Shown: positions 1,620-64,000 of the stretch, one piece after another
How the letters are laid out: the number at the start of each line of letters is the position of its first letter
Position numbering within the stretch: position 1 is the first letter of the stretch
Source: Ischnura elegans
Taxonomy: Eukaryota; Arthropoda; Insecta; Odonata; Coenagrionidae
Reading direction: 5' to 3'
Assembly (NCBI RefSeq): GCF_921293095.1
Contig: NC_060246.1
Coordinates: forward strand, 108,480,941-108,544,940
DNA length: 64,000 nucleotides
Translations under genes and position numbers: made by a program
Notes under the pieces: model-generated
Told to the model about the DNA's origin: nothing
What the model saw: only the letters and a program-made list of their open reading frames with translations
The model's database searches: none

Positions 1620-4015
1620 CACTTTCGGACACCTTCGAAGCTCCTGGTATCAACACAAAAGCCGGTCCCATTAACATCTCTGTATATCATATGCTCTCCA
1701 AACGACTTAGCATTGAGTCTCTAGAACGCCTGCGTGTACCAGCTATCCTCACGGCCTGTTCTTCGGTGATTGGAACTGCAAGCACCCGAGTTGGAACACC
1801 AACGAAATCAATGCCGACGGTAAAATATTATACTCTTTCATTCGCAACAGAAATTTCTCTATTTTATCTCCTTTGCAACCAACCCATTACGCCCCACGTT
1901 CGTGTGACGTAATGGATTTCGGCCTTTCTTACAACCTTCCGCATTTTTTCCTTCACTTCCGATCATCTTCCTCTTACATTCTCCATTCCCCTCTCTGCCA
2001 TCTCTCCTCTTAACGACCAATGTTGTTGTTACCGACTGGGACAAATTTTCCGCAATCTTGGAAAATTCAATTGCCGACATTCCATTTATTAATAATCCGT
2101 CCCCTGATGCCCTCGATAAGCAAACAGATTTAATCACATCAGCTCTTAACTCAGCCAAGGAACGAGCAACTAAATCATTCCTATCTCGTATTCGTAAGTC
2201 CAACAGATCTCCGCATTTTTGCTAAATTTTATTAAATCGCCGCCCGTAGAACATGGCAAATTTATAGACTTCAAAATGATAAATCGGCTTACAATAAATT
2301 ATCTAATCTAGTTAAAAAAGAAATTAGCAAGCATAGCCAAGCCCAATGGGAACCTTGGCTAGTTTATTAGACTAGATAGATTTGATTAGACTTGATAAGT
2401 ACCTTGACTATCGAAAATTCACCCGAAATTTCTCCAGATATATATACCAGCCCAATATGGCGGACAATAAAATCACTTTAAAAACATTTCATCCTCCTAT
2501 TGCTTCATATTCCAGACTTATTTTCGATCCTTCGCACCAAGTAGAAGTACAAGCTGATCACCTCCAAAAAGTTATGTCTTTATATTCTTCCTTTTCACCC
2601 ATTGATAAAGAAATTAAACTTTTCTACAATAAATTAACAGATATTCCCAACTCCTTTCAGATTTCAACTCCTTCTTCTGTTCGCACTAATCTTTCCGCGC
2701 TTCCCGGAAGAAAAGCTCCTGGTCTCGATAACATTTCTAATTTTAAAAAAAAATATGCTAGCCGTATAAACAAATTCAACACTCTTCTTTCTGATCTATT
2801 CATCAACGCTTATTCTTTTCTTTCTTTTCCCAGTACATTGAAACAACCTAAAATCATTTTAATACCCAAACTGGGCAAAGATCCCAAAATTACTGGTCCC
2901 ATTTCTCGTCTCATTTCACTATTCTAATCTTTCTAAAGTATTTGAATCTATTATTCTATTACGCCTTGGATCTTCTTCTTCTGATCATAAAATAATCCGG
3001 CCTGATCAGCTTGGTTTCAGACGTAAAATGTCCGCCATACTACTCCACCTTGTAGAAAAAATTAGCCATTCCTTTAATCGCTATTTCTCTACGGATGCGG
3101 TATTCCTTGATGTGGCATGGGCTTTTGACCGTGTTTGGCCACGTTTGGCACAGGGGAATAATTTACATACTACACCTGCTAATATTCCCCCGTTCAGACA
3201 TTAACTTTTTAATTTCCTATCTAAGTAATACACTTCCGCGTCGCCGAAGGACCAATGTTATCATCTCTTAGGCCCATGGAGGCAGGCGTTCTGCAGGGCT
3301 CATTGCTAGGTCCGTTATTATTCACACTCTTTGTAACCGACATGCCATCTACATCTAAAACCACTTTACACGTGTACGCTGACGAAACTGCTATCGCGGC
3401 TACATCACTGAAGGGAGACACCAACATTAACAAATTAAATGCACACTTAAAACTCTTACAGAAATGAACTCTCTCATGGAAAATTCAAATAAACGCAACA
3501 AAAAGCATACACGTTCACTTTTCATACCTCACAACACACAATTCACGCACATAACCACATTTCAAAAAACAAGCGATACCAAGAGCAGCCACGGTCAAAT
3601 TACCAGGAGTGATTTTCAACAGTAAATTAGCCGTTATCCCTCATCTGAAATATTGCACCAGTAAAGCAATAGCTGTGCGTCAAGCCATCTCCGGTCTCTC
3701 CACCCCTACTTCTCCACTTTCCCACAGATCTCGAATACGGCTATACAAGAGCCTTATATATCTTCCAGAACAAATCAATTCGGCATCTTCTTCATACTAG
3801 TCGTCTTGTAGGAATCTCAGACATCCTAACTTTGCATAAACTCCCCATAATAAATGATTTTATTTCCCATTTAATCAATAATTCTAAGTCCAGGCTGAAG
3901 AGCACCAAAAATACATTACTTACAGACACCTGGAATTATGATCCTCATATTCCAACGACACATACACTGCCTCATCAAGTTACTCTTGTCGTGACCTCCT
4001 AATCGTAGCTTTCAT
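1620..4015 (+). mobile_element. Decayed jockey-superfamily LINE (endonuclease end to C-terminus)
   Basis: Conceptual translation in shifting frames gives consecutive LINE landmarks. A SDHLPL end of an apurinic-type endonuclease lies near 1960. A linker with TDWDKFSAILENS follows near 2035-2170, then reverse transcriptase blocks at 2382-3467, then a downstream region with SRIRLYKSLIY near 3730. Many stops and frameshifts show it is long dead. Related but internally deleted copies lie at 21795-23115 and 61165-62535. No poly(A) or target duplication could be fixed at the 3' end. Confidence 0.75.
2382..3467 (+). pseudogene. Reverse transcriptase domain of the jockey-like LINE, broken
   Basis: Reverse transcriptases of this type copy LINE RNA at nicked target DNA. 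The first open segment (2382-2927) carries LPGRKAPGLDNI and IILIPKLGKDP, the family's conserved finger blocks, followed by a degraded form of the usual RPISLL. After a frame change come DQLGFRRKMSA (normally FRxxxST) and VFLDVAWAFDRVWP, which holds the first catalytic aspartate. The segment 3255-3467 has GVLQGSLLGPLLFTLFV and then YADETAIAA. The normally invariant YADD has become YADE, so the catalytic centre is lost as well as the frame. It belongs to the element spanning 1620-4015. Confidence 0.8.
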
Positions 4016-4862
4016 ATTCATAAATTCAAACTTCTAAGGTATATATTTGTTTGTATAACTGATTTATAAAAAAACATGAAAATCTCTTTGCTAATGCTAT
4101 GCAGCAAAGATAAAACATATAAATACTTAGAATGATAAAAAAGAATTGGCAAAAAAATAATAAAATATTTGTGAAAAATTAATACAAAAAATTAAATAAT
4201 ATATAATGATAATTAACAAAAAAACATGTTTAAAATGTATTGACATTGATTTGCTACCGATGTAATGGCAACCAAATAGCCAATATTCCTGTTGTAAATA
4301 TTAGTTTTAAGTTTCTATTTCACACAGGCAACACAATACACCCACAACAGTACACGTGCTCCATTGAGCTCTTAGATAAACTCGGATGGGAATATCCGTC
4401 AGACCGTAGATTGAAAACTAGAGTAAACCTATTATGTAACTTCAAGATCAATTTATTTTCCGACGAAATTTGACATATCCAACGAAAGCCAACAAATCCG
4501 GTAGATCACATTAAAAATTAAATAATATATAAATATATAGTAGAAAAGGTACGTTAAGAATATCTTTTTTCCACGATCAATAAGAGACTTTATCCGTGTA
4601 ATTTTATTACTTCTCTCCCGTTAAATCCGATTTGGAACATGCCGCCAGTGCTTGGGATCCTCATGAAATAAGCTGAGGCCTGAGATAGGAAATGATCCTC
4701 ATTAGGCTGAAAAACAGAGTTATAAAGTGTACAGAGAAGAGCAGCCTGGTACGTGAAAAGTCGTTATTATAGTCTCGTTAGTGCTATTGACCTCTTACAA
4801 TCAGAACAACTCGGATGGGAGTCACTGTCAGACCATAGATTATAAATATGACAAACTACTAT
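4016..4862. other. AT-rich stretch, no gene seen
   Basis: Low-complexity AT-rich sequence. The part around 4540-4600 (CCACGATCAATAAGAGA) resembles 32085-32105, so some of it is probably repeat-derived. Confidence 0.4.
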
Positions 4863-7084: not shown

Positions 7085-7597
7085 GTGAATATGATTGCTA
7101 TTTTATCTGGTATATATAGTATTGGTAAAAACGTATTTAAGATATCCACGTATAAAATCTCTCTCTGTAACGAGCGATGGCATAATTCAGGGCCTAGATG
7201 ACTAATTTATTTCAGTTATAATTGTAAATAAGGAACGGATGAAAGGTTGATTGTGTAGTTGATGACTGTGGACTTGAATAACTATGTTAGTGAAACCTCC
7301 GATGAAAATATTTATGAGATTTGGTTATAAAGGAATGTGATGATATATGTCCACGCATTAGACATCACTAAAATTTTTTTAGTTTAGATTCCATTGTATT
7401 TTCCTTAGTGATCAGTCATTCGAAACCTGTGTTTTAAAAATCCAAGTGAAAAATATAGGCATTCAGGGATAAATTTCTTTATTTCCTAAGCTATTAAGTT
7501 AAGGATTCTAATATTTAACTCTTAAAAAGATTAAAACTTGGTGGATTGCACATAGAATGAACCATTGCAATTCATGAATCATCCATGGATATTTCAG

Positions 7598-7791
7598 ATA
7601 ATGAATCATTCCTGGACCCCAGTATGGATGAACCAGTATTAGCTACAGCTTCCATTGAAGCTACTGCTCCAGCTGAAGCTCCAGTTTTGGATCAGGCAGA
7701 AGGGACAGAGGAGGACAAGGATGAGAAAATTAAACGGCTGGAATCGAAAGTCTTATCATTGCAAAGGAAGGTGAGGACTTTGGAGCAGCAA
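7598..7791 (+). pseudogene. Transposase linker and coiled coil, cut by a MITE
   Basis: An acidic, proline/alanine-rich linker is followed by a heptad-like stretch (IKRLESKVLSLQRKVRTLEQ). P transposases have a leucine-zipper dimerisation region after the THAP domain, and this sits in the same place. The frame runs into the MITE at 7792. Reading directly from 7791 to 8501 resumes in frame (Q-Q-L-K-R). Confidence 0.75.
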
Positions 7792-8500
7792 TAGGGTAGT
7801 TTCCTTCATCAAAGAAAACAAAAGGTAATAATTGCGATTCGTTACCCACCATTAGTGTATTCATAATATACAAATTATTTCGTTTTATAAATGCCGGTTT
7901 AGACGAATGGCAATGGTCCATTTTTATCCTCATTTGAAAAGGGCCAGATTGGCGCCCATGCGATGCCACTCCACGTGACGTCACAGGGACCTAGTTTCTA
8001 TAGGAGAATAAAGGAGTTATACATCGTCTGAGGTTACCAATGCATGCATGAGTCACAGATCTCAGGGAAACATGTCTTAAAAATCACTTATTAAAACTGG
8101 CCAAGGTCGGAAAGTTTTCCTCGTTTGATAAGGTATTAATTCCTTATTTAAGCCAAGCGCTACCAGGCGGCAGGGCACTAGGCTACCCGCTGGCAGCCTG
8201 CGACGTATCAGCGCTAAGCCTCGCCTCAAGGTCACCTCACCGGGCGGAGGGGGAACCAGAAATACGACGTACGGAGAGATTTCCCATCATTCCTACCATA
8301 AATACTCTACACGTAATAGTAATGTAAACTCTATGATTCCTACTCACGCGTCGCGTTTTCGCGCGCTTGTAAATTTTCACTTTTCATTTAATCGCGAAAA
8401 ATAGATATTGTCATTTAAAAATCTAAAAGCGTGAAATACGTACTCCAGGAGTAATAATCTTTCGATTTAGGCAATAAAAAAATAATAGGAAACCACCCTA
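7792..8500. mobile_element. 709-bp TSD-less MITE (copy 1) nested in the transposase gene
   Basis: Termini TAGGGTAGTTTCC and GGAAACCACCCTA are inverted repeats with one mismatch. Flanks are CAA and TTG with no duplication unless the terminal TA is counted. Removing 7792-8500 exactly restores the transposase reading frame. Three other copies start at 23125, 44497 and 62543, all between (A)A and TT. No ORF of note; the inner part is GC-richer (around 8170-8260). Confidence 0.88.
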
Positions 8501-10523
8501 TTGAAGAGGACCACTAAAGCCCTAAATGACTTCCTCAACCCCGACCAAATACTAGCGCTGGGTAAGAAATCAAGGAAGGGGCACAAATGGTCAAACATCA
8601 CTGTAAAAAGTGCACTACAGCTGAGATTTGCGTGCGGTATGAAAGGCTATAATTGCATTTTAAAGCTAAATTACCCAGTGCCTTGCCCAGTGATAGAACT
8701 CTGAGCAGAAGGCTCGAGGGTTTTAAGTTTTATCCTGGAGTCCAAGAGGAGATTTTTGAATTCCTCCGAATTAAGGTGGACTTCATGAATGAGAAGGAGC
8801 GAATGTGCGTTCTGTTAATGGATTAAATGGCCATTGAGGAAAGAGTGGAGCTTGACAGGAGCTCTAAAACCTTGTTTGGTTACACGACACTGCCTCCTTC
8901 TGAGGCAGTGGCGACGCATGCCTTGGTTTTTATGTTGGCTGGGGTTTCTACACGATGGAAACAAACAGTGGCTTACCACTATACAGGCAATTCATTCAAT
9001 AGCGTTGATGTAAAGGGTATTATTATTAATTTAACTGAAAAAACCTTCGATATTGGCTTGTTGGTAACTTGTGTTACTTGTGACATGGGAAGTTGTAATC
9101 GGGCTGTGTGGAGGGAGTTCGGAGTTACTTGTGGGAAGTATTCAGTAACTTCAAATACTTTTCCTCATCCAAGTAACACTGGCTCTAAGGTATATTTCAT
9201 GGCAGATGTTTGTCATATAATTAAGAATTTGCGCAACCACCTTCTTGATGGCAAATTTATTTGTATTAATGAAAATGATGTAAGGGATAATGGTTTACCT
9301 AGTAGTAGAGTTTCATTAGATCCTGTGAGGAAACTTATAGAATTGCAGGCGAGCAGGGAACTGAAAATAGTTCCCAAGTTGATCGAGGGACATGTGGAAG
9401 TGAGGCAATACCAAAAAATGAGGGTGCGCACTGCAAGAGAACTGATGAGCCATGATGTTGCTGCTGGAATTAGGTACTGTGTGGTGCACTTAGGTTGGAA
9501 TAATGAATTTCTCACCACCGCTTGGTTTTTTGAGCAAGTCGATAGGTGGTTTGAGTTAATGTGCTCAAGGAACACTGTAATGGCTCTCAGTAAACTTAGA
9601 CTGGATGTATATGAGAAAAGTATTCAATTTTTGAAATACTTTGTGGGAGTAACCGAAAGGATGAGTGTTGGGGATGGCAAGTGGAAACCTGTCCAGACTG
9701 GAATTAAATTGACTACAGAGACTATGCTGCAAATACAACATTATCTATTAAATGATTGTTCATTTCATTATGTTTTAACGTCAAGGTTTTGCCAGGACTC
9801 ACTAGAGAATTTGTTCTCCTGTGTGCGGGTTAAAACCCAATTCCATCCCCAGTTCAATTCAAAAATGCCATCAAAATTATAAGCATTGGTCAATTTATGC
9901 TTGTCCCCTTCAAAGGGAATAGTGATCCCGATGAGGGAGCTCAATTGGCAGACTTCCTCAATGTTTCTGGACCAAGGGTAGAGGAGGTCCAAGAGGAGGA
10001 GACATCGACTAATTTTGAGGGAGCGAGAGGAGGGACATCGACCAATTACTCCTTTGGATGCAGTAGATCAGGGCTCCCTATACTATTTAAGTGGTTTCGT
10101 GGTGAAACAGGTTTGCGGGTTGGTACAGTGTGACACCTGCATCAATATGTTATGTGGGGATGGGAGTGATGCGGGTTCCAGCAATACCTCCTTGTTGACC
10201 AAAAAGGAGAAGAAGGAGGTGCTCTCATAAGACCCAGCAAGTGGTGTTGGGAGCTCAGCAAAGAGGCAGAAGGGGCTTTTGAAAATTATAAGGCTATTCT
10301 GGGCACAATAAGGTGTAATGTTGTAGAATTTTTGTGTAAAAAAATGAATGTTGCGACACCAGAGTTGGTGAAATGTCATGATATTCGGTCTCTATTTTTG
10401 CGCAAATTCTTTTGCTTTAGGATTGACGTACATGCCAAAGCCCTGACTGAAGAGTATAAAAAAACTGCTCGACCACAAGGCCATGGTAGCCGAAGTGTTT
10501 TCATGAGAAAAGTTGTGAAATAA
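8501..10523 (+). pseudogene. Catalytic and C-terminal part of the P-like transposase
   Basis: The longest clean piece is 8827-9882 (351 codons). 8501-8690 gives NDFLNPDQILALGK and LRFACGMKGY. After a frameshift the sequence continues SDRTLSRRLEGFKFYPG up to LMD and then a TAA at 8824, where GAA (Glu) is the likely ancestor. The 8827 piece has STRWKQTVAYHYTG, DMGSCNRAVW and MADVCHIIKNLRN. Beyond 9865 the frame shifts to ISIGQFMLVPFKGN, then YLSGFVVKQVCGLVQCDTC, then a last segment ending 10523 with FFCFRIDVHAK. These follow the order of THAP9 and Drosophila P transposase. Confidence 0.88.
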
Positions 10524-13245: not shown

Positions 13246-13681
13246 GTCATTTGCTAAGTTGAGTTTCCCTACAATCGACTATTTCTACGCGTCGCAACGG
13301 CCGTTTTAGGCTGAACATGCCCATGGGCGGCGGGTTACACAGGTCAACATAATAATTACACAATTTAATTTGCTTTTATTCCTTTTTCTAAAGACTTTCA
13401 CTCGCATGATTATTTACAACAGAAAACTATGAAGGGGTAATACCCTTAATCCTCCGCTATGTCGACGAATGAATAGAGATCCAGCGACACCATAAACTGC
13501 TAGGGAAGAATCTGTGGCTCATAATAGAAAGATGCATGTATCACTATATCATCATAAAACCAAAGGAGAGTATGGGCGGACTGCATCGGACGTTAATCCT
13601 GCATCACATCTGTTAAGAATAAGTTGAATACCAGCATAGTCTAGTGATGGGTCGGTCATGAACGATCGAATCATGTGACCA
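13246..13681. other. Unassigned; last part rich in GGTCA/TGACC words
   Basis: 13645-13680 holds GGGTCGGTCATGAACG and CATGTGACC, similar to the array at 15420-15700. Nothing else recognised. Confidence 0.4.
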
Positions 13682-15419
13682 GGGGGCCGATTGTGTAACT
13701 TTACGTTCGAACGTAAAGATCCGGTTCCCGTGGAGTTTAGATCAACAACTCGAAAACAATTGAAGGAGCGATTGTGTAACGTTACGTTCGAAAGTGTTTC
13801 GGCTCTCGATCGAAAGCATCTCTTCGTCAACACATCACTTGACGATAAGGCTATCGAATCGTTCGCAGGTGAGGTTTGGGATGGAATTTAAATGTTTATT
13901 ACCTTTCATGGCCACGTTGTATGTCCTTTTTTTGGGATTAAGTGAATTATGCAATCAATTATATTCATAAATCTCAGTGTTATGTTGTTGATTACGTGAA
14001 TTTGTAGTGAATTGACATAAATAATTGCAATTTGTGCGTATTAGTTCACTTTGGTATAAAGATGAGCAAGTTTACATTTGCTTCCTTGTGTAATGTGTGT
14101 GCATTTGAAATGAAATTAACTCATGTGGAATTAAGTGAATTAAACATTCTATTTAATTTATACATCATTGTGCTATGTTTTTAATAACGTGAATAAGTAG
14201 TGAAATTACATCGATAAATACATTTTGTACGTGTTAGTTTACTATACGATACAAAGATGAGGACGTTTACAATTGCTTCGCTATGTAATGTGTGTGCAAT
14301 TCAATTGAAATTATCCTTTTTTTATGCTTGCTTTAAACGTGGTTCCACTATAGTATATTAGGTAAATTATAGTTGTGCTATAATACATTGCCAAAATTAT
14401 ATTCTCTACAATGTTTAATTTAATTCGGATCATCGGGCAGTTATTGACAAGTAAATGATTTAATTTATGTATTCAAATAGTTTATTTTAACTTCTCAATG
14501 ACGTGTTAAATTAAGTTGAATTTATATGGTTTATGTACTTCAATTAATGTCTCTGATGCGATATGGTTTCCTCAAAAAGGGTAAAGTTTTTGAAGTGATA
14601 TTCGGGTGTTTGAGACGAGAGGAGATATCGAAGATGACTCTGCATATTTGCTTTTTCTTTCAAGTAATAGGTGAAAGGTTTGTGATGATGAGAATGTTTT
14701 TGATTGAGAATATTAACGTACTTATTTATTTCATGAGTTACGTGCTTTTTTAACTGTTTACCTTACGACTATTATTAAGACGTCGTACTAATTCACACTC
14801 GTCAGTTTTTATTTCTTGCAAATATTCAATATTCTGCGGCATTGCTCCTTACAGACACACAAAGGCGAAGACGAGAGCCTATCAATATCGAATATCCGCT
14901 CATATATTTCTTCTAAATGAATTAAGTCAATTACAAATGATACAAGTTATTATTTAGCGAATTGCAAAAGTAACGAAATGGAGACTTACCGCGGCATTTC
15001 TAAATAGTCAGCGATATCTGAGTAAAAACTACTTATCCCAAATATCAGTTACGCTCCAACGGAAAGGAAGGTATTTAATACTGAATTGAGAAAGATTGAT
15101 TTATACGCAAAGTTAAATTCTTTCAATAATATAAACTTAATTGGCCGATTGTCTCTGAAACCAATATTGTTTACTTAGTTTCGCTTTTCAAAACAAACAC
15201 AGCCACTCTCGGCCTTACTGCGCATGCGCTCAAGGAAAACAATCGCGAAACTTATTCCCAATTCCAAGTAAATATGACAACGTCGTAACTTTCGATTGCT
15301 TGTTGACGATCGTCCATACACAATCGCACTTACAGCTAACGTTCGAATACCGGGAACTCAATCGAGAGTGAACGGATCTCTAACGATCGAAAGGTAGCCA
15401 AGTTACACAATCGGCCCCC
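13682..15419. mobile_element. 1.74-kb inverted-repeat element, copy 1 of a near-identical pair
   Basis: The left end GGGGGCCGATTGTGTAACTT is the reverse complement of the right end. The word GATTGTGTAAC followed by TTACGTTCGAA is repeated about 80 bp inside the left end. The interior holds a tandem duplication (about 13935-14135 against 14150-14320). Open frames at 13691-13891 and 14526-14753 are conserved in copy 2 but show no family motif, and the first lies in the subterminal repeats, so coding is doubtful. No clear duplication at the flanks. Confidence 0.75.
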
Positions 15420-15720
15420 AGGGTCATCTCCGAGATTGATCGGTGAACGGGATCATTCAGATGACCGAGAGGGTCATTTCCTCACGTCGCGTTCGTGACC
15501 GTGGACGTTCTCCATCAGTCGCGATCGTCGGTCATTCATGATTGTTCTAGACGCAGGTCATTCGTGATCGTGGTCGTTCTCCGTCAATCGCCAGCCATTG
15601 GGTCATTCGTGATTGCTCATTGCATAGGTCATTCTCAAACACAGTCCAATCCCTATCATTCTTCGAAGATGTCGCGGTTGGTGATCGTCACTCGCGACCT
15701 GAATTGACCGTTCTTTCACC
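15420..15720. repeat. Array of GGTCATTC(G/A)TGAT-like words
   Basis: GGTCAT occurs about 15422, 15471, 15531, 15558, 15601 and 15628, often followed by TCGTGATCG or TCATGATTG. CGTTCTCC(A/G)TCA(G/A)TCGC occurs twice about 60 bp apart. This is a degenerate short tandem repeat. Confidence 0.55.
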
Positions 15721-16231
15721 CGTGGTGATGAATGGCATGGTATTGCAATCACCAATAGGGGCAATGTTCGTAATAATTGTAAAGTTTTCTATAATCGACA
15801 TTTCATGGTACCTATGGCCTTCATATCTCAGGTGATATGCCGAAAATCTTGAGAGAGCCCAGTTTTCTCTCATGCCTTTCAATCAGTTCCATTATTTATA
15901 TTGACTTTCCAGAGTAAAATATTGATCACTAACCCTATGCCCCACGAATGATTGGATATTATCGTTGATTCTGTATCTTGAAAAACAATAAAATGAGTGT
16001 AATAAACAACATTTAAGGCACATTCTGTATTTGTAAATGTTTTGGAAGTAATTAAGTTAAAAATTAACTAGTTTCTGGTTTTAACAATGAAAAAACTTTA
16101 TAGATTAATGATAATAATAACAACTCATGTCTCGTTTAACAAGCTACATAGGTATTGCCCATAAGTAGAGAGCGATCAGCGGGTCATGATTGACAACAGG
16201 GTAGTGATTGCCGTCCACTTTCCACAATCAT
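15721..16231. other. Spacer between the twin elements
   Basis: No gene recognised. GGGTCATGATTG at about 16178 again resembles the array unit, next to the left end of copy 2. Confidence 0.4.
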
Positions 16232-17964
16232 GGGGCCGATTGTGTAACTTTACGTTCGAACGTAACGATCCGGTTCCCGTGGATTTTAGATCAACATCTC
16301 GAAAACAATTGAAGGAGCGATTGTGTAACTTAACGTTCGAAAGTATTCCGGCTCTCGATCGAAAGCATCTCTTCGTCAACACATTACTTGACGATAAGGC
16401 TATCGAATCGTTCGCAGGTGAGGTTTGGGATGGAATTTAAATGTTTATTACCTTTCATGGCCACGTTGTTTGTCCTTTTTTTTGGGATTAAGTGAATTAT
16501 GCAATCAATTATATTCATAAATCGCAGTGTTATGTTGTTGATTACGTGAATTTGTAGTGAATTGACGTAAATAATTGCGATTTGTGCGTATTAGTTCACT
16601 ATGGTATAAAGATGAGCAAGTTTACATTTGCTTCGCTGTGTTATGTGTGTGCATTTGAAATGAAATTAACTCATGTGGAATTAAGTGAATTAAACATTCT
16701 ATTTAATTTATACATCATTGTGTTATGTTTTTAATAACGTGAATAAGTAGTGAAATTACATCGATAAATACAATTTGTACGTGTTAGTTTACTATACGAT
16801 ACAAAGATGAGGACGTTTACAATTGCTTCGCTATGTGATGTGTGTGCAATTCAAATGAAATTATCCTTTTTGTATGCTTGATTTAAACGTGGTTCCACTA
16901 TAGTATATTAGGTAAATTATAGTTGTGCTATAATACATTGCCAAAATTATATTCTCTACTATGTTTAATTTAATTCGGATCATCGGGCAGTTATTGACAA
17001 GTAAATGATTTAATTTATGTATTCAAATAGTTTTTTTTAACTTCTCAATGACGTCTTAAATTAAGTTGAATTTATGTGGTTTATGTACTTCAATTAATGT
17101 CTCTGATGCGATATGGTTTCCTCAAAAAGGGTAAATTTTTTGAAGTGATATTCGGGTGTTTGAGACGAGAGGAGATATCAAAGATGACTCTGCATATTTG
17201 CTTTTTCTTTCAAGTAATAGGTGAAAGGTTTGTGATGATGAGAATGTTTTTGATTGAGAATATTAACGTACTTATTTATTTCATGAGTTACGTGCTTTTT
17301 TAACTGTTTACCTTACGACTATTATTAAGACGTCGTACTAATTCACACTCGTCAGTTTTTATTTCTTGCAAATATTCAATATTCTGCGGCATTGCTCCTT
17401 ACAGACACACAAAGGCGAAGACGAGAGCCTATCAATATCGAATATCCGCTCATATATTTCCTCTAAATGAATTAAGTCAATTACAAATAAGTTATTATTT
17501 AGCGAATTGCAAAAGTAACGAAATGGAGACTTACCGCGGCATTTCTAAATAGTCAGCGATATCTGAGTAAAAACTACTAATCCCAAATATCAGCTACGCT
17601 CCAACGGAAAGGAAGGTATTTAATACTGAATTGAGAAAGATTGATTTATACGCAAAGTTAAATTCTTTCAATAATATAAACTTAATTGGCCGATTGTATC
17701 TGAAACCAATATTGTTAACTTAGTTTCGCTATTCAAAACAAACACAGCCACTCTCGGCCTTACTGCGCATGCGCTCAAGGAAAACAATCGCGAAACTTAT
17801 TCCCAATTCCAAGTAAATATGACAACGTCGTAACTTTCGATTGCTTGTTGACGATCGTCCACACACAATCGCACTTACAGCTAACGTTCGAATACTGGGA
17901 ACTCAATCGAGAGTGAACGGATCTCCAACGAACGAAAGGTAGCCAAGTTACACAATCGGCCCCC
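16232..17964. mobile_element. 1.73-kb inverted-repeat element, copy 2
   Basis: Same termini and interior as copy 1 in the same orientation, with only scattered substitutions and small indels. Flanks are CAT and ATG, so a 2-bp AT duplication is possible here, but copy 1 does not show it. Confidence 0.75.
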
Positions 17965-18447: not shown

Positions 18448-18899
18448 AAACCTCAAATTGAATCCGTCAGAATTTCTTTCAAGAGCTCTCTCTCCAAGGA
18501 AAATGAACGCATGAATGGTCACGTTTTAGAGGTAAAACGAACCCCTCACACTTCATGTATTGCTTAAACTTCGCAAATTCGCAATTGGACATGCATCAGA
18601 CGGCCTACCAGGACTTCAACTCTATTTATTGCGATCGGGGTGCATAGTATACAAGTCCGAATACATAATTTTAAGTAAGTTTTTTAAATGCTGTATACAA
18701 AATAAAATATCATTGGAATATTTAGCAAGCATATCTTTCCAAAAAAGACCAACGTTGATATACCATGCATAAAATTAATGTACGTAAACTACTGATACAG
18801 TGTCACAACGAAATGGAAAATAGGTATTTATTTCAGGGTTCAGTGTAAAATATAATGTACATAAACTAGTGCTATAGCATCATAACAAAATGCTAGAGT

Positions 18900-19304
18900 T
18901 CATTTCAATTCGGTTTATTCGTTGAACGAGGAAAGCGACGAAGAAGTTACACGGAGGGGCGACAGATGGCTCTTATGTATAAGGGGATCGATGCGACTGT
19001 CGCTATCAGAATCGGAGCGGGTGAATCCAAACGAAAATGATTGCACGGAAGACATACAACACAAGCGCTCCAGTAATAAATGAAGGACTGCAAAGAAAGG
19101 ACCAGTGAAAACCGGGTACCTACTATCCTCCACGTACAATATAATACATCGTCTAACATTCTTAAGTTCTGAGGATTGAATGCAACGAGTAAATAAATGA
19201 AACCTATAACTTTTGAAACATGCCATATAAAAGCCGCTATAATCCCTCTTTTCAAACTTTCTTTATAGTCTTTATAATCTTATTCAATCAAATATTCAAG
19301 ATAC
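18900..19304. repeat. Dispersed repeat (GATGGCTCTTATGT family)
   Basis: Matches 60115-60520 (the block B copy), plus shorter matches at 6085-6194/11618-11740 and 19770-19820. A minus-strand frame is open over much of it in both copies but has no recognisable family. Confidence 0.55.
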
Positions 19305-21047
19305 ATTTCCCCAAAGAATTTATCTATGCACGGAAACGCTAAAAGATCGTAACAAACAGCAAAGAATGTTAAGTTTCATGTTTGTACCGACGCGACGGGG
19401 CTGTCCAGTATTTTAAATGTAAGTATTTTAGCATACGTATTTGAAATAATTACGTAGAATGTATTCGGTATTTTAAATACAAAACCTGAGTGGCCCGACC
19501 TGATGAAACGATTTTTAGAATTTTTAAAACATTTTTAGTATTTGCCCACGCAAAAATAAAAATATTTTTGTAAAATACTTTTTCAAGCAGCTCTGATGAT
19601 ACTTCTGTGACGTTATGCATCAGAGATTATCTATTTTTATTATCTTCGTTATCATTAGAACTGTGATTAATTATCAGCAGCATTTAGTATTTCAAACACT
19701 CCTGGTCCTGTATTTTGCCCAGCCGTTTCCCAACTGGCCTAAGCAGAGAGCGGACCACGAACAAGGAACAGAGACGAAGTAGTTGCATCTGAGTGGCGAC
19801 AGATGGCTCTTACGTCCGCGAATGAGATTGGAATCCCCGTGACGCTGCGCCGGTGGCAAGAACTGCAATCACCTCGAGACCTGTACTCTCCACTTATCAG
19901 CATCGGTGATTTCTAATTGTGATTGCGATCACCGAGAAATATCACTCTTTATAGTCAGCGGTGATTTGTGGTGCTGCTATTTCTGATACTTTGTCCAATT
20001 CCAAGAATGAGCTCTCTTCAAAACGAACTAATGAACTTATTGAAATTGGAAAATTAGGCAAAATGTTTTTTGGGAATAGTGCTGATTCTGAGTTTGTATT
20101 ACGATAATAACGTAAATTTGATGTGGTGAAGGAATAGATACGCAGCAGTCGTTAAAATCCCGTCGGCATTTTTTTTAACATAGTTTTTATATTCTAACCA
20201 TCGTGATTGAAACCGCTAGCTGTATGTTTTGGTAAAGTATGAATAATTCATCATTGTTATTTCGTAAAGTATGTCTCTATTCATAAAAGATGAATAAGAC
20301 ATCCTTTATAATACTGTTGGTAGTAGCCGGAGCTATCTTAACCTCATTCACAGTCGCAATGATTTCGCGTATTCAGTAATTTAGTCACCGGCAGTGATCG
20401 GCTACTTCCCTTCAATCACAGCGACATATTGCTCATCACTAGGTAGCAGCCTGTACTATGTTCACTGGAGCCAGTGACACCATCACAGTGATTCATGAGT
20501 AACTGCTATGGTGAGTATTAAATCACCGACAGTGACTGCTACTTTTCAGTAACGGTAATTCCATCGTAGTAAACGATATATCGCTAATCACTAGTACGAG
20601 TATGCAGACGAATATCTAATGGCTTGAAGAGCAGAAACGAGCGCTGCAGGGAAAAAAGAACAGCTAAAGCGGAAATATCGCATGTCTACCAGTGCAACAT
20701 ACCACACAGCATTCGAGGGATCCAGAGTCACTAAATTATCAGAATTGTGATTCCGGTGATAAACTCTATGTAGTAACACTTAAGAGAATGGGGATATCAC
20801 GGAAAATGGAGAAATTTTCGCAGTGCTTGCTTAATAGCTTTTTTGCTTCTGAAGTAGCCGACGGTATACCTCATCAAATGTTGACCATAAGTCAATTTCT
20901 ACGCCAATTGCATTACTGGATATGTTATAAAGTCGATACCTAATACCATCATTAAGATACCTAACGCAGATTAAGAAAGCAAAAAAGGTCATCCCGCCTC
21001 GCTAAAAATAATGATTAAGTCAATGCGTCCACTTTTTGTTGTAAATG
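19305..21047. other. Sequence present only in block A; dense in GTGAT/ATCAC words
   Basis: Block B jumps from the equivalent of 19304 straight to the palindrome. 19860-20590 contains many GTGAT/ATCAC(C/T) words (for example GTGATTGCGATCACCG, CACCGGCAGTGATCGG, CATCACAGTGATTCATG). A piece at 19770-19820 is the GATGGCTCTTA repeat. No ORF of note. Confidence 0.45.
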
Positions 21048-21057
21048 TCATTAGGGA

Positions 21058-21226
21058 ATGATCTCTGCATTCTATTCGGGTTTTCACCGCGTCCGTTGTG
21101 TTTTGGCGACAACACTTTCGCTGACATTCTCCTTCGACCTGAAGACGCTGACTGCAAAGTCAGCGAAACTGTTGTCGCCAAATCACAACGGACGCGGTGA
21201 AGACCCGAATAGAATGCAGAGATCAT
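21058..21226. repeat. Long imperfect palindrome (68-bp arms, 33-bp loop)
   Basis: Arms 21058-21125 and 21159-21226 are inverted copies with a few mismatches (ATGATCTCTGCATTCTATTC against GAATAGAATGCAGAGATCAT). A 12-bp direct repeat GTCATTAGGGAA lies at 21047-21058 and 21256-21267. The core TCCTTCGACC is shared with the shorter palindrome at 60521-60565. Confidence 0.85.
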
Positions 21227-21329
21227 CTAATCAACGCCGCGGAAATCTTCGAACCGTCATTAGGGAACGGAGAAATATATATCATTATATCTTTATATAT
21301 TAGAAATATAAAGAAAAATCAAATAATAA

Positions 21330-21794
21330 TCACAATACGTTGAGAAAAATTGGTGTCAAATTTTCATCGGGTGACCGACGTAAAATAAGAGCAAATCGCC
21401 AATCGGGATGAATCTCCATTAATAAAGATAAATGAGATTCAAATGAATATGGCCAATATAAACCATTTAAAAAATTTCCAGAGTAACTATGGGTCAGAAA
21501 CCCAAGAACGCTCTCCAGACCACGAGAGGAGTAGGAAAGAGTAGATGCAGGTAAACTTTCATTGAGTCATTGACAATAAATCAAGAGCGAATATCCGATC
21601 GACTAACATTTCGATTTAAAAATAATAGACATTCATTAATGAACAGGACCACTAAATATAACTTAAACTTTTCCATCATAATCACGAGTCGTAAAACCAA
21701 GAGCCTCTCTGGACTAGGGCCGCGTAGAGAAGATGGTAGTTGCAGGAAATTTTTTTATTGGTATCCCACTAAATTCATATTCATTTACTTCTGA
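21330..21794. repeat. Satellite-like monomers within block A
   Basis: Two units start near TTTTCATCGGGTGAC (21359) and TTTCATTGAGTCATTGAC (21557), about 195 bp apart, with the CCAGAGTAAC, CATTAATGAAC and CACGAGTCGTAAAAC landmarks of the 12150-13245 family. Confidence 0.65.
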
Positions 21795-23115
21795 TCACCT
21801 ACAGCTTAAGCTTTCAATTCCCTTATACAGTTAGCCCGTATTGCCGTCAAAATTCACCGTCACCGACTTGGTTAAATTAGTTAATATTTTAGACGATTCC
21901 CTTTCCTCAATTACACAAGTTACAATTCCTTCTCCCGCAGCAATTGACCAACAAACAGTATTAATCACCAGCCTAACCTCATTCTGAAGGAGAAACGGCA
22001 TCACAATCCTTGATTCACCGTTTCCAAAAATCCTGTCATATTCCCGTAATATTCAATCAAACTCATCAAACGCAGCCAAACGGCCCGTCGTGATAGGCGA
22101 GCGCGAGTTCAAACTGATAAAATTTAACTTAAACGTCACTCAAACATTGTAAAAAATGAAATCAGGAAACTTAGGCACATGCAACTTGGAAAATCTTGTA
22201 ACAAAATATCGTTGGAAAGCCATTTGGCGATTTATTATATCATTTTTTTAATCAGGCAAACAATTTTCTCATCCCTTTCTTTAAACTCCGCCTTTATTTG
22301 GCCTTTTTTTATAAACTTCACCAAATTAAATGCTCTCCTAACGATATCAATTTTATCATTACATATCAGCATCAAAGGCATTTCCGATTCGCCGAATCTT
22401 TGCGGCCGATGGAAGCAGGCGTTCCGCAAGGATCTACCCCAAGTATGTTGCTTTTCACATTACTCGTTAATGACAGGACATCCACTGGAAATACAACACC
22501 ACAGATGTACACACACAGCACTGCGATTGCAGCGACGTCAAGGCGGGGTGACACTTACATAAATAAACTTAATAAACATTTAAAACTGATTCACGCGAGG
22601 GTACAAACATGGACAATACAGATCAATGCTTCTAACAGTACACACATACACTTTTCACGCACCACAAATGTCATATCATATCAAGGAAAAATGAATACCA
22701 AGAGCACCCTCACACTATTTCTCGTCACCTACTTAATAAATTAACCTTCCAACACCACCTGAAATACTGCAACGCCGAAGCTCTAATCAATCGTAAGACA
22801 AGAAATTTTAGCATTATGCTCCCGTACTTCTCCACTCTCCCACAGATCCAGTCAAATTATAAACCACGATAGTCAGACACACTATCCGCTAATGCTGCGG
22901 CATTTTCGCCCATAATATACATTAATAATAACCATTCGCAATAAACTCGAAGTATTCCAAAATAAATCCCTCCTCCTGAATCTTCCTGACCAGAAGTTCA
23001 TCGGCATCACTTTATAGTACACCCAGGGTATATAAATTCATTTCCCAGCAAGTAAATAGTTTTAAGTCCAGTTTCGGGGCAAATAACATCGCATTAACAG
23101 AAGCTTAGAATTAAG
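21795..23115 (+). pseudogene. Internally deleted jockey-like LINE relic (block A copy)
   Basis: Related to 1620-4015. A linker with TDLVKLVNILDDSLSS and AIDQQTVLITSL is followed by KISLESHLAIYYIIF. Compared with 1620-4015 the finger and FRxxxST blocks are then missing, and the sequence resumes at FYKLHQIKCSPNDINFIITY, RPMEAGVPQGS and LLFTLLVND. The catalytic YADD region reads MYTHSTAI. The same deletion is in block B. No coding capacity remains. Confidence 0.75.
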
Positions 23116-23124
23116 ATCCTCCAA

Positions 23125-25411
23125 TATGATAGTTTCCTTCATCAAAGATAACAAAAGGCATTGAATGCGATTTGTCACCCACCATTGGTGTATTTGATAA
23201 TATACAAATTGTTTGGTGTCAGAAATCCCAGTTTAGACGAATGTCAATGGTCAATTTTAACCTTATTTGAAAAAGGCCAGATTGGCGCCCATGCGATGCC
23301 ACACCACGCAACGTCACAGGGACCTAGATACTACACGAGTAAATAGGAGCTTTAAATCGTCTGAGATTACCAATACAATACCAAATTTCGCACGAAGCAC
23401 AGATCTCAGGGAAACATCCCTTAATAATCACCTACTAAAACTGCATGTGATAGAAAAGTTTCCTTCGTGTGAAAGGGTATTAATAATCCATATTTAAGCC
23501 AAACGTTACCTGCTAGCAGGATACTCTACGCTACCGCAATGCTCGGCAGCAAGCAGCCTGCATCGTAGCGGCGTTCATAGCCTCGCGCCCAGGTGGCCTC
23601 ACACAGCAACAGCCAGACGTCGAACGGGCTTTTCCCAGCATTCATACTTAGCCGTCGCGTTTTCGCGCGCTAGAGAATATTCACTTAGCATTTAATCGAA
23701 AAAAATTGATATCGTTATTTAATGATCTAAAAGCGTGAAATACGTACACCAGCAGCTCGATTCTGTAAATGTGATATGGCCGTCACAAGCGGATTTCGTC
23801 AATGTATTCACGGCTTTGACGCTGGAGCGATTCTGAAACTTTGTAGTGACGTCACTCTCACAGCCGCGTCCGTGAAAGTATTCACGCCCAAGAGGGCCCG
23901 TGGTAGCTTCGTCGCGGCAATGCGCTCTAATTTTTCATTATGAATTTACGCTGTAATTGATAATTAATAGCACATTATTAATTAATTACGATGGTGGCTA
24001 TTTCATATTGTCACTTCCCATAAGTAATATGTATTAAAAACAAATAAAAGAAATGCGTAAAGTTAAATTTACATTCGCGTCCTATTTAAATTGATTGGCC
24101 TTCATTGCGATTCAAGTTGGTGGGAAGTTAAACCTTGCGCTGAGGGTTTGACGATTATCTTATATTTGTGCATCTTCTAGAATGTACAAGTAAAATACTC
24201 ACAACTTAATGTTCTTAATAATTTGGAGTAGAACCAACGGTAAAAGTATTGTGCGGTATTGAATGTTAACAGATTTATTTAATATTTGTTTCGTAAGTTC
24301 AAGCCTTCAATTTGTTTTTATTAACGAGAATGGAGGCTCTTTACATACCTCCGCTACTGTTGCATGAGCACCAATGTCGACGGAGGCAATAGATGCACAT
24401 ACTTCGGCGGCAGATACGCGATATCAACAATCCCTTCGAGACGTGAGATTGGCGATGGATCACTACACCACGATTAATTCGTATAGACGTTTAGATGGCT
24501 TGCCGGGGCATACTTTAGTACGTTAAGATAAACATTGATCATCTATTCCATCTCTTCCATGCATTATTGCTGCCGTTCAGCAACACGACCAACATGATTC
24601 GTTTTTCTGTTGACATAGAAATACTAAGACATGTAAGCATCTCGTCCTCTAGCAGAAACTGTTGATAATCTACTCGTATTCGCGCCAGAAACATTTTCAT
24701 CAGTATAAATCGTGAATAGTGGCATGTGCTTGCATAATCAGACATACATGTATACGCACCACAGCGCATTTAAAATTATGTACTGAAATGATGAGAACAG
24801 CTCAAACGCGTACGAGAATGAACCATTATTAAATAATAGAATAACACTTGTTCTCATTCCGCGTAAGCATTAGCTCCATATTATGAGGAAATTAGGGCTA
24901 ATTGTGCAATTACGAGCCCGCTACGTGATAACTAACTTTGATACGCAGCACTTGACAACATATAAAAGAGGTAATGTACAGTTTATAGCTATAAACTAAT
25001 TAAACAACCGTAACTTATCATCAATAGGTACTTTTAAAAGAAAAGACCTCACTCAAAATTGAGTAAAGAAGTATTATTTACTTTGGGAGTGAATATTCCA
25101 CGGCATTGTATATGTTTCTCTATGGTAACTGAAGTTGCAGTTGGCCGCTGAAGTAAGTTTGTATCGGAGATTCTGATTCGTTCCTCGCGTCCGCACAGCT
25201 ACCAACATAAGGAACTGAAGTGATCGTTCGCAATCCGTCAAACATCTTACGACACAGGCTTGCAGGATCGCTTGAACGTCTTTCACGGTGAGAGGCGTGA
25301 GAACTCCACTGTGGTTCGAACCACGCGAAGCACAGGTATGACATTTACAGAACCGAGCTGCAGGAGTAATAATCTTTCGATTTAAGCTATAAAAAATAGG
25401 AAAACACCCTA
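23125..25411. mobile_element. TSD-less MITE (copy 3), interrupted by a Harbinger-like element
   Basis: Left end TATGATAGTTTCC is diverged; right end GGAAAACACCCTA. Flanks are CCAA and TTCAAA. Without the insert at 23753-25360 it is about 680 bp. It corresponds by position to copy 4 in block B. Confidence 0.8.
23753..25360. mobile_element. 1.6-kb inverted-repeat DNA transposon, Harbinger-like, nested in a MITE
   Basis: Ends CAGCTC(G)ATTCTGTAAATG and its reverse complement match over about 22 of 24 bases. The 3-bp duplication is CAG (23750-23752 and 25361-25363). The uninterrupted MITE copies read ACTCCAGGAGTAA there, confirming the empty site. Animal Harbinger elements are known to use 3-bp CWG or TWA duplications. 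Minus-strand frames at 24539-24769 and 25074-25344 do not show a recognisable nuclease, so it is probably non-autonomous. Confidence 0.78.
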
Positions 25412-26105
25412 TTCAAACTATTTTTAGACTGCTTCTTCAAGTAGCTCTTCTAATAGTATACTGTATGCCTTTCATGGTTATAGTAATAATGTTTTCACGT
25501 TTTAATTGAATAAATGGATCAATTGTTTATTTGTTGCAATAAGTCCAGCAATTAAAAAATAAAATTAATATATTCATACGAAAAAGAATCATAAGCTGAA
25601 GTGAAAAACAACATGAAAATAAAAATAAAAAATCTGTAAAAAAAGTGACCTTAAAGTTTCAGACAAAAATATCATTTAACCTATGTTTTCAATTCAGTAT
25701 TTAACTTTCTGCTATCAAAAATAACACACTGAACACGCAACGCAAACAGATGTGCACATTTATTTATTGTATTGTTAACTGAATGGTTGCGGTGAACATG
25801 ATTCACGTGACGGCTGTTCAAATATTGTGAAATCAATGGCTCTTAGACAAAAATACTAGACAATATTCCCTATCGAAAGACATCTCTAATTATAAATAAA
25901 AGATATTGATTAATGTATATGGCCGTAAAAAATGGCATAATTTTCAGAGTAACCAAGGGTCATAAAAACCAGAGTCCTCCGCCGAACACCAAAGACCATA
26001 TAAACTATTTCTATATAGTTTATACGGTCTATGGGCCCCTGGGAAAACAAACGATACGCTTTGATATTTTGTATATGACGGCCGAAAAACGTTACACAAG
26101 GTAAG
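25412..26105. repeat. Right end of block A, with a satellite monomer
   Basis: Aligns with 63332-63999 at high similarity. 25860-26000 carries TTCAGAGTAACCAAGGGTC, a diverged monomer. Block A has about 40 extra bases near 25975-26015. Confidence 0.7.
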
Positions 26106-28150
26106 TTTACAAACTTTCCGGTTTATCTTACGTGATTACTGCGACGGATATGACGTTCGAAATACCCAAAATAATCCAATACTTTTAAATTATACTATAT
26201 CAAATATTTACGAGGATAAGGAATACGGTTAGTTAGCACACATGGTTTGTAAAACTTAAAGTTATTCAATGCAAAAATCCAAGAGGCTACTTCGATCTCC
26301 TAAGTAGATGCTGACGTCAGCTGAAATTCTATTATTCCGTGTTTTCGTATCTTACTTGTGTCAACAGCGGAAGAGTGCATATCGATTCTGTTGAAGTGCA
26401 GGTTGGAGCAAAAATTCCAGGAATAATTCGTGCGTAATTTCAGGGACTAAAAATTCACGATCAATTCCAGATTTTCCCGGCAGCTGGACAACCTGGGAAT
26501 GCAAGCCAAGAAGCTGCATTGAAATCATAAGTAGATGTTCACGTCGACAGGCATTCCACGTGTTTTTGAATCTTACTTGACATCTAGATTCCGTTTTCCT
26601 GTCTGACATTCCACGTATCGTTGACGCAGTAAAAAATCTACGATGCTACCGTACTTAAAATTACGGCAAACTTATTTTAGGCAATAAAATGGGCGTTGAA
26701 CTGGAAAAATGTAATGTGAAATGCATTTGATTTAACAGATCTCTAAATTCCGTTTCAGTGATATATTTCACGGATAATTCACACATAATTCTCGATTCTC
26801 CAGGTTTCCCTGTCATTGGACACCCCCTCGCCCTTTGAACATGATATAAATTCTGAAAAAAAACACACTACCACCCCTTTTTTATACCCCATATTTTACC
26901 CCATATTTTAACTTACAAAATCATTATGATAATTGACTTTGGCGATTACATATGTACCGCGCGGCGAACAAACAAAAATAAATTAAACTTCAATAATTAT
27001 TTACAGAAAATGACACCTAAAATTAAGCAGGAACGTTGATACATTGAAGAGGTTAAAAAAATCTTTAAAACGAAAATAATGATGACTGTACTGTTTTCAT
27101 AAATAAAAAAACCATATAAAAATCGCAGTTCAATTTCCATTTTCATTGAAAAGAGGATGGAATTTCAACTCGGAAGATATCTCGATTTGAAGATTAAGGA
27201 TTAACGATAATGGCCATTATAAACAATTTCCAGAGTAACCACGAGTCGTAAAACGAAGAGAGCTCGCCGCACAACGAACTCCTAAAAGAGTGTATTGATA
27301 CATAATGATATCGTAACTTTAAAAAAATGAGAACCATTACTTTTTTAGAACATAATGATACAAAAAAGAAATGTTTTCCACGGAATCTTGAAATTGCGAA
27401 CGAAATTGACCACATACATTTGACCAATAATAGAACCGTTCAAAAATCGATATTTTTAAATATGTTTCATTAAAGTGCTAAATAAATATGGAGATATTAA
27501 AACTATACATATCATCTTTTGTTTTAATTTCCTTCATATATCACTATGAATGATGGCCTGACGCAACTCATTTCCTTTGAGTTGGTTAGGATACCTCACC
27601 ATTGAAAATTTAGTCAGTTGGAAAGGGGGGACAAAAACTAGTTTTCTTTATCAGCAAATCATATTACTTGGAACATCCCTCGTGTTGGTGGGGCGTCTGA
27701 GGCTTCACTGATAACCTCCCCTACTCCGGCAGCCCGGATCGTGGGAACGGGTCCAAACACCGGTTCCCACGTGGGTGGTCACTGCCGAGCAAAGCATCTG
27801 CTGAAAAACCCAATTCCCTCCCCTCTGCGATTTGTCTTCCACCATTACTTCACAGGCCTACCATCTGTTGCTGAAACATTTTACTAATATTTTGGTGATA
27901 TTTCTATTTACTTTCAAATTTCCAGAAGGGTGAATTGTCATAGGAAGCACCTCTCTCCTCGTTGCAATTTTTCATTGTGCATGGCGACAAATTTTTCAGA
28001 CGTCTACGAACGCAAATCAACGGGTTCTTGGCGTATTTTACAAACTGTAACATTCAAGCACTGACCAACTCTTCCTGGTCGAGTATATTTTCAATACATT
28101 TAAGAAAAATGGCTTTTTCACCGCTTCCTCGCATGAATGCTGAAATAAGA
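26106..28150. other. AT-rich DNA with a satellite monomer, otherwise unassigned
   Basis: 27160-27300 contains CCAGAGTAACCACGAGTCG and AACTCCTAAAAGAG. 26930-27080 loosely follows 12850-13010 (GATAATTGACTTT, CTTTAAAACGA). 27690-27850 is GC-richer. No gene recognised. Confidence 0.45.
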
Positions 28151-28345
28151 AATGAGCACCCTTATCACGACGATAAAAGTTATATACAATGCTCCTTTCA
28201 CGTCATTGCTTCCTAAGAAAAAAACACTGCCTAACCGAAGGCACAGTCCTTACAAAACCCGCATAATATAGTTTCTGGCTCGTTAAAAGCATTCGATATA
28301 AAAAATGTTCTCAAGTCGTACGGATCGATAGCATTCATTTCTTTC
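28151..28345. repeat. Dispersed repeat, second copy at 62591-62785
   Basis: AATGAGCACCCTTATCACGA through ACAAAACCCGCATAATATAG to TGATAGCATT (TCGATAGCATT here). The 62.6-kb copy interrupts a MITE, so this is a mobile repeat. Confidence 0.65.
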
Positions 28346-44496: not shown

Positions 44497-45158
44497 TAGG
44501 GTAGTTTCCTTCATCAAAGAAAACGAAAGGCATTGATTGCGATTCGTTACCCACCATTAGTGTATTCATAATACACAAATTATTTGGTATTTGAAATACC
44601 GGTTTAGACGAATGGCAAGGGACAAATTTTATCCTCATTTGAAAAAGGCCAGATTGGCGCCCATGCGATTCCACTCCACGTGACGTCACAGGGACCTAGT
44701 TTCTACACGAGAGGATAGGAGTTATACATCGTCTGAAGTTACCAATGCATGAATGAGGCACAGAGCTCAGGGAAACATGTCTTAATAATCACCTACTAAA
44801 ACTGGCTAAGGTCGGAAAGTTTTCTTCGTTTGATAAGGTATTAATAAACCTTTTTTAAGCCAAGCGCTACCTTTCAGGGTACTCAGCTACCCGCTGGCAG
44901 CCTGCGACGTAACAGCGCTAAGCCTCGCCTCAAGGTCACCTCACCGGGCGGGAGGGGGGACCAGAAATACGACGTACGGAGATATTTCCCGGCATTCATA
45001 CTTGAGCGTCGCGTTTTCGCGCGCTTGAAAATTTTCACTTTTCATTTAATCGCGAAAAATAGATATTGTCATTTAAATATCTAAAAGCGTGAAATACGTA
45101 CTCCAGGAGTAATAATCTTTCGATTAAGGCAATAAAAAAATAATAGGAAACCACCCTA
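44497..45158. mobile_element. 662-bp TSD-less MITE (copy 2)
   Basis: TAGGGTAGTTTCC and GGAAACCACCCTA ends, flanks CCAA and TTTC. The closest copy to the one at 7792, differing mainly by point changes and small indels, so it is the best type copy of the family. Confidence 0.88.
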
Positions 45159-54578: not shown

Positions 54579-54939
54579 GATATATTCCTTAATATTCGCT
54601 TATGAATAATCTTTTCTCTCTGTATTGTTATTGTACACCGCAAGGTACGAAAAATTTTCGGCGCCCATAATTCAAAAATTTCAGGTGCATTTACGGCAGA
54701 CACGATGTATGTCATTTCAAATCGCTGTGCATTTTAACCAATGAAAAAACGGAAATTATGAGTTGACAATATAAAAGCTTATATAGACTTGCCTCCGAGT
54801 TTCCGGCATTTCCTGAAATTTGAATGCCAAACATGGAAAAATCAATAACTCTATTATCTGGACAGAAGTTTCTCCAGTTGGCAGTGTTAACACAGTTCGG
54901 AGCACAGCACTTGTTCACTAAAAAAATCATTAAATAAAA
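54579..54939. other. Unassigned
   Basis: No gene recognised between the protein fragment and the RTE-like LINE. Confidence 0.4.
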
Positions 54940-59801: not shown

Positions 59802-60114
59802 ATTGGACATGCATCAGACGGCCTACCAGGACTTCAAGTCTATTTATTGCGATCGGGGTGCATAGTATACTAGTCCGAATACAAAATTTTAAGTAAGTTT
59901 TTTAAATGCTGTATACAAAATAAAATATCAACGGAATTTTTAACAAGCATATCTTTCCAAAAAAGACCAACGTTGATATACCATGCATAAAATTAATAAA
60001 CGTAAACTACTGAGACAGTGTCACAACGAAATAGAAAATAGGTCTTTATTTCGGGGTTCAGTGTAAAATATAATGTACATAAACTAGCGCTATAGTATCT
60101 CAACAAAATGCAGG

Positions 60115-60520
60115 AGGAGTTCATTTCAATTCTGTTTATTCGTTGAACAAGGAACGCGACGAAGAAGTTACACCGAGGGGCGACAGATGGCTCTTATGTA
60201 TAAGGAGATCGATGCGACTGTCGATATCAGAATCGCAGCGGGTGAATCCAAGCGAAAATGATTGCACGGAAGACAAACAACACTAGCGCTCCAGGAATAA
60301 ATGAAGGACTGCAAAGAAAGGACCAGTGAAAACCGGGTACCTACTATCCTCCACGTACAATATAATACATCGTCTAACATTCTAAGTTCTGAGGATTGAA
60401 TGCAACGAGTAAATAAAAGAAACCTATAACTTTTGAACAATGCCATATAACCTCCGCTATAATCTCTCTTTTCTAACTTTCTGTATAGTCTATTATCTTA
60501 TTCAATCTAATATTCAAGAT
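60115..60520. repeat. Dispersed repeat (GATGGCTCTTATGT family), block B copy
   Basis: Equivalent of 18900-19304, with small indels that shift the minus-strand frame. Confidence 0.6.
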
Positions 60521-60565
60521 ATTGCAGTCAGCGTCTTCCTTCGACCAGAAGACGCTGACTGCAAT
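60521..60565. repeat. Short palindrome (17-bp perfect arms, 11-bp loop)
   Basis: ATTGCAGTCAGCGTCTT, loop, AAGACGCTGACTGCAAT. The loop core CCTTCGACC and the right flank are shared with the 169-bp palindrome at 21058. Confidence 0.9.
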
Positions 60566-61150: not shown

Positions 61151-61164
61151 AAATTCTTTATTGG

Positions 61165-62535: not shown

Positions 62536-62542
62536 CCTTCGA

Positions 62543-63331
62543 TAGGGTAGTTTGCTTCATCAAAGAAGGCATTGAATGCTGTAATAATCAATGAGCACCC
62601 TTATCACGACGATTAAAGTTATATACAATGCACCTTTCACGTCATGGCCTCCTAAGAAAAAAACATTGCCTAACAGAAGGCATAGTCCTTACAAAACCCG
62701 CATAATATAGTTTCTGGCTCATTAATAGCCTTCGATATAAAAATATGTACTCAACTCGTACGGATTGATAGCATTTATTTCATTCAATTTAGATGGTCAA
62801 TTTAACCTCATTTGAAAAAGGTCAGATTGGCGCACATACGTAATGTAACGTCACACGGACCCAGATGCTACACGATTAGATAGCTTAGAGCTTTAAATCG
62901 TCTGAGATTACCAATGCATGCATGAAGCACAGATATCAGGGAAATATCCTTTAATAATCAACTATTAAAATTGCATATGATCGGAAAGTTTCTTTCGTTT
63001 GATAGGGTATTAATATTCCTTATTTAATCCAAGCGCTACCCGCTAGCATGATAATCCACGCTACCGTAATGCTCGGCAGCAAGCAGCCTGCATCGTATCG
63101 GCGTTCATAGCCTCGCGCCCAGGTGGCCTCACATAGCAGCAGCCAGACGTCACACGGGCTTTTCCCAGCATTCATACTAAGCCGTCGCGTTCTAGGGCAC
63201 TTGAAAATGTTCACTTCGCATTTAATCGCGCAAAAATAGATATCGTCATTTAATGATCTAAAGGGTGAAATACGTACTCCAGGAGCAATAATCTTCCGAT
63301 TTTGGCAATAAAAAAATAGGAAACCACCCTA
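62543..63331. mobile_element. TSD-less MITE (copy 4) with a nested dispersed repeat
   Basis: TAGGGTAGTTTGC and GGAAACCACCCTA ends; flanks CGA and TTCC. It is interrupted at about 62580-62800 by the repeat also found at 28151-28345. Positional counterpart of the MITE at 23125. Confidence 0.8.
62591..62785. repeat. Dispersed repeat inserted in MITE copy 4
   Basis: Near-identical to 28151-28345 in the same orientation. Confidence 0.65.
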
Positions 63332-63999: not shown

Positions 64000-64000
64000 A

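Follow-up and report, generated by a model that had tools for sequence, protein, structure and literature searches.

The Ischnura elegans genome carries an abundant, recently active MITE family that inserts almost only at AATT and that, in a satellite where empty units lie beside a filled one, has gained no TA on insertion. Four copies are found in the stretch of contig NC_060246.1 analysed here (64,000 nucleotides, hereafter the window). The family is of a fairly ordinary kind among mobile elements, and we consider below how its ends are joined to the target. Based on comparison of its flanks with those of described groups, we propose with moderate confidence that it is a new PHIS-type element, non-autonomous and closer to ISL2EU than to Spy. 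A non-autonomous MITE moving by cut-and-paste, with ISL2EU-like integration at A|AT|T, would be the best explanation of the observations, and we are evenly divided as to whether it is the correct one.

MITE copies in the window and in the genome

The original prediction listed four copies with common ends, and all four were confirmed at their positions on the plus strand, with TAGGGTAGTTTCC as the left and GGAAACCACCCTA as the right terminal sequence. Allowing up to 2 mismatches, 9 occurrences of TAGGGTAGTTTCC were counted in the window where 1.17 would be expected, and none of 100 shuffles reached 9 or more. Copy 1 (7792..8500; 709 bases when written TAGGG..CCCTA, 707 when written AGGG..CCCT) carries 45 substitutions relative to the young consensus (6.8% of 662 aligned positions) and 50 gap columns, and the longest stop-to-stop frame lying fully within it has 91 codons. 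Copy 3 (44497..45158; 662 bases) is young, separated from the consensus by 7 substitutions and 3 gap columns; its left and right terminal 13-mers agree at 12 of 13 positions, and it contains no frame of 120 codons or more. Copy 4 (62543..63331; 789 bases) is old: 167 of its 639 aligned positions are substituted (26%), the alignment has 176 gap columns, and extra internal sequence is present. Copy 2, also old, extends to 25411 (23125..25411), a span of 2,287 bases that is interrupted by a nested 1,608-bp element. The flanks read CAA before and TT after in copies 1 to 3, and CGA before and TT after in copy 4.

While four is the correct count for the window, it does not stand as a count of independent events. 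Copies 2 and 4 sit in the same slot of one repeat (flank identity 87% on the left and 84% on the right) and therefore go back to a single insertion that was later copied, leaving three independent insertions. The segments that carry them, 18584-26111 (approximate limits) and 59802-64000, are 84-96% identical in the same order and may represent either a large repeat or a segmental duplication. The repeat itself weakly resembles the end of a non-LTR retrotransposon; an RVT_1 match at 22202-22744 (E = 0.00033, 20.9 bits) lies under the Pfam cut-off of 29.6. The nested element of copy 2 (23753..25360, no strand assigned) has 20-base ends that agree at 19 of 20 positions and is bordered by CAG on each side where the MITE consensus has a single CAG, which fits the CWG duplication described for NuwaI elements (PMC4482050). 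Within copy 4, 171 bases (62573-62743) are 92% identical to 28134-28304, so this copy probably contains a further inserted repeat.

Elsewhere in the window, a tandem duplication of ~2.55 kb (13680-17788) shows 96-98% identity in each of the three listed stretches, and each of its copies holds a two-unit 193-base repeat. A reverse transcriptase frame occupies 54934-56598, with an RVT_1 match at 54934-55815 (1.6e-24) followed, after one stop, by an open frame in the same frame (55816-56598). The segment 2376-2927 matched no Pfam family.

Using copy 3 as query, we searched the genome assembly (1,722,721,009 bases in 110 contigs) and obtained 4,173 first-look candidates, 40 of which were scored; this gave 42 matches, all but two of them near full length. 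As the 40 near-full-length copies were selected by best score, they do not sample the family at random. The young consensus is 665 bp, and 29 of the 30 genome copies compared with it diverge by 0 to 0.6%, the thirtieth being copy 3 of the window (1.1%); the last burst was therefore recent. Taken together with the divergence of copies 1 and 4, this indicates a long family history on which a recent burst is superimposed. Two mutually exclusive patterns for altered left ends, described below, sum to at least 1,169 left ends in the genome (689 + 480), and the total is larger. The element is a MITE: it is short and non-coding, has TIRs and a defined target, and exists in many near-identical copies, so that the proposal of a MITE family is borne out by the genome search and the extracted flanks. 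Folded as single-stranded DNA, copy 3 has a z of -5.05 against 20 shuffles, none of which was equally stable; this agrees with a MITE and is uninformative on mechanism. No paper describing the family was found among the literature matches listed. At one genomic copy (L037, G000:C2:135271469-135275705), the last 240 MITE bases and 46 flank bases occur three times in tandem with a period of 286 bases.

Target site, empty sites and the absence of an extra TA

The 40 best-scoring copies represent 39 distinct sites, as two of them (L015 and L028) share one duplicated site. At 36 of these 39 the element is preceded by AA and followed by TT, as had been proposed from the window. In 112,000 bases of flanking sequence, AATT is found at 1.1% of positions. 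The three exceptional sites are L017 (TA after), L032 (CC after, with the final A missing) and L037 (GA before). Insertion is thus almost only at AATT. Among the same 39 sites, position -3 is C in 19 and A in 2, and position +3 is G in 15 and T in 7. Helitrons also insert between A and T and have no TIR; a Helitron-like insertion was set aside, clear TIRs being present.

With TA at each end in the 30 genome copies and in the 4 window copies, the filled sites would also be accounted for by an ordinary duplication of TA at AATATT, the ends then being GGG..CCC. The original prediction had named an extra TA in empty sites as the finding that would overturn it, and one genomic copy, L030, allows this to be checked. 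It sits in a tandem satellite with a unit of ~315 bp, filled as GCAA, element, TTGG. A scan recovered six empty units, all of which align without gaps around the site and read GCAATTCG in five cases and GCAAATCG in one, with a core of AATT in five and AAAT in one. Two of the recovered units lie 687 bases apart, so that one intermediate unit was probably missed or altered. Scoring with one TA kept is 4 points worse than scoring without extra bases in all six units, none of which contains the TA. A TA duplication is thereby refuted at this satellite. The satellite (L030, L041 and L042; G000:C2:1760401-1772000) carries one young MITE, and a second MITE nearby (L041, 1361-1998) is 82% identical, with AA before and TT after.

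The second site that bears on TA is that of copy 1, which interrupts a P-like transposase pseudogene (7561..9882, plus strand) between the codons CAA and TTG. We take this pseudogene to be of the THAP9/P-element type. Codon boundaries fall at 7791 and again at 8501, so removal of 7792-8500 keeps the frame. This part of the original argument holds. The site had also been called decisive, which it is not: the gene is broken again downstream by a stop at 8702-8704, reading continues from 8653 in another frame, which has an in-frame stop before 8827, and given this further frameshift and stop the frame at the junction amounts to one-in-three evidence. Downstream, 8827-9882 matches the Pfam families TNP-like_RNaseH_N (1.6e-19) and TNP-like_GBD (1.3e-11). 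The P-like pieces on either side of the insertion, 64 aa on the left (7600-7791) and 67 aa on the right (8501-8704), matched no Pfam family, and a PDB search with the right-hand piece returned nothing up to E = 1.

The repeat that hosts copies 2 and 4 has a diverged relative in the window (3162..4234, plus strand) that lacks the MITE, its site being near 3949-3950. Here the scores without extra bases and with TA kept are tied (26/26 and 22/22), as the relative happens to contain ATATT; these ties are in keeping with a TA duplication as well, and the locus was dropped as a clean empty site and kept as a weak one. It reads NYDPHIPTTH, next to junction-side readings of YDPS and PI in copy 4 and of DPP and QTIF in copy 2, the intervening codon being read across the join, and this reading frame may lend weak support to an insertion without extra bases. 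With the satellite units and, to the degree stated, the P-like frame standing against it, a TA duplication is extremely improbable as the general behaviour of the family.

One target, two readings of the junction

The filled site A A T AGGG...CCCT A T T can be split in two ways, both starting from AATT. In the first, AA|TAGGG..CCCTA|TT, nothing is duplicated; in the second, A AT|AGGG..CCCT|AT T, the AT is duplicated. Filled and empty sites are identical under both, the empty site being AATT, and deleting the 709 bases of copy 1 removes either the whole element or the element plus one AT. The absence of duplication consequently does not follow from these sites, and the original claim of no target duplication, which had been argued against TA only, could not be upheld, since an AT duplication yields the same letters. 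This is a general trap: where the target is strictly AATT, insertion with "no TSD" and with "AT TSD" leaves filled and empty sequences that are indistinguishable, and groups split by a TSD criterion therefore need evidence from the transposase or from off-target insertions. For the damselfly, the present family documents a recent MITE burst and offers a clean collection of insertion sites, with empty counterparts in a satellite.

Our preferred reading is the second one. A transposase supplied in trans would bind the TAGGGTRGTTTCC ends and integrate the MITE almost only at AATT, most likely by cutting A|AT|T with a 2-base stagger. The ends AGGG...CCCT would be joined to the staggered target, and repair would then duplicate AT, as described for ISL2EU elements. 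In this scheme the cut-and-paste mode, the staggered cut, the duplication of AT and a transposase of ISL2EU-like type are all inferred. The observations that weigh against an AT duplication include the right end that does not mirror a changed left end in 25 of 26 copies (see below) and the presence of CC instead of AT on the right of L032.

The first reading corresponds to a blunt, duplication-free insertion between AA and TT, with ends TAGGG..CCCTA and a Spy-type mechanism acting on a somewhat different target. It accounts for filled and empty sites just as well as an AT duplication, and Spy is a published group without TSD, found mainly in arthropods (PMC11304231). The flanks speak against it, given the rarity of A at -3 and of T at +3 and the frequency of C and G at these positions. 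We regard it as possible, though on the unlikely side. Slightly less probable, and in our estimate rather unlikely, is the existence of a group separate from Spy that inserts bluntly and without duplication at CAATTG-like sites and is represented by many recent copies in this one insect.

Changes in the terminal bases bear on both readings. Altered left ends were counted genome-wide by the two mutually exclusive patterns, one of 28 and one of 29 places in length: T is changed in front of AGGG.. at 689 genomic places, and at 480 the T is intact and the A preceding it is changed. Both counts are uncalibrated, and the backward-pattern controls gave 0 for each. On this uncalibrated comparison the terminal T is not better conserved than the target A. 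If T were encoded by the element and the neighbouring target base freely chosen, one would expect, if anything, fewer changed T than changed A, so the excess of changed T counts against blunt insertion. An AT duplication in turn predicts equal counts, and 689 and 480 are unequal.

For a test of co-variation between the ends, 30 of the 689 changed-left-T copies were taken; 4 were dropped because the right end was not located, and 26 were scored, two of which (L044 and L046) have identical flanks. The right dinucleotide is AT in 22, GT in 3 and AC in 1. Matching dinucleotides at both ends occur in a single copy, L047 (AAC|..|ACT), which looks like a duplicated AC. A left T whose change is unmirrored on the right is what blunt insertion predicts, and later mutation predicts likewise. 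With 86.2-97.4% identity to the consensus, the copies are old, so that the test has little power and mutation after insertion explains nearly all of the changes; the outcome lends a duplication no support. Tests on changed terminal bases thus separate neither reading from the other, and neither is proven by them.

A third possibility is that the transposase belongs to another lineage, within or outside PHIS, that shares an AATT target, in which case the PHIS link would be one of target resemblance only. The ends themselves assign no family, and the MITE is known here without its transposase, both of which leave room for such a lineage. Against it, A|AT|T is a specific pattern that has been described for ISL2EU (PMC4482050). 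We consider this possibility quite unlikely, and return to ISL2EU-like integration as the preferred account.

Comparison with PIF/Harbinger, Spy and ISL2EU elements

As a putative member of the PHIS superfamily, the MITE may first be set beside PIF/Harbinger elements, which resemble it in that their TIRs may start with A or G (PMC4482050). The target duplication differs: PIF/Harbinger elements have a 3-bp TWA duplication, whereas the MITE flanks are AAT and ATT, and no 3-base direct repeat was present in the consensus flanks AATAGGG and CCCTATT for end positions from AATAGGG to GGG.

Spy elements are described as inserting in AAATTT without TSD (PMC4482050), and cgSpy shows AAWTT at about 60% of insertions (PMC11304231). 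The MITE shares with them an AT-rich palindromic target, the lack of a TA gain and an arthropod host. It differs in that its target is CAATTG-like rather than AAATTT or AAWTT, and in that Spy is free of TSD while the MITE can also be read with an AT TSD. At most 9 of the 39 sites from the 40 best-scoring copies are compatible with AAWTT, and with the base frequencies at -3 and +3 given above the flanks do not match either Spy target. The original assignment to the Spy group is accordingly not retained.

For ISL2EU, an AT TSD between a conserved A and a conserved T, hence a target of A|AT|T, has been verified by empty sites, and the ends usually start with GG (PMC4482050). The MITE resembles this group in having flanks AAT[..]ATT at the 36 sites and AATT in five of six empty units, letters that an insertion without TSD would equally predict. 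It differs in its TIR, which starts with AG under the AT-duplication reading where ISL2EU usually has GG, although this is not an absolute criterion, and in being non-autonomous, whereas autonomous ISL2EU elements have a gene for a DDE/HTH/THAP transposase and one for a YqaJ nuclease, and Spy elements a single DDE transposase of their own clade. On the evidence of the flanks, the ISL2EU target A|AT|T would appear to be a better fit to the damselfly MITE than the Spy target.
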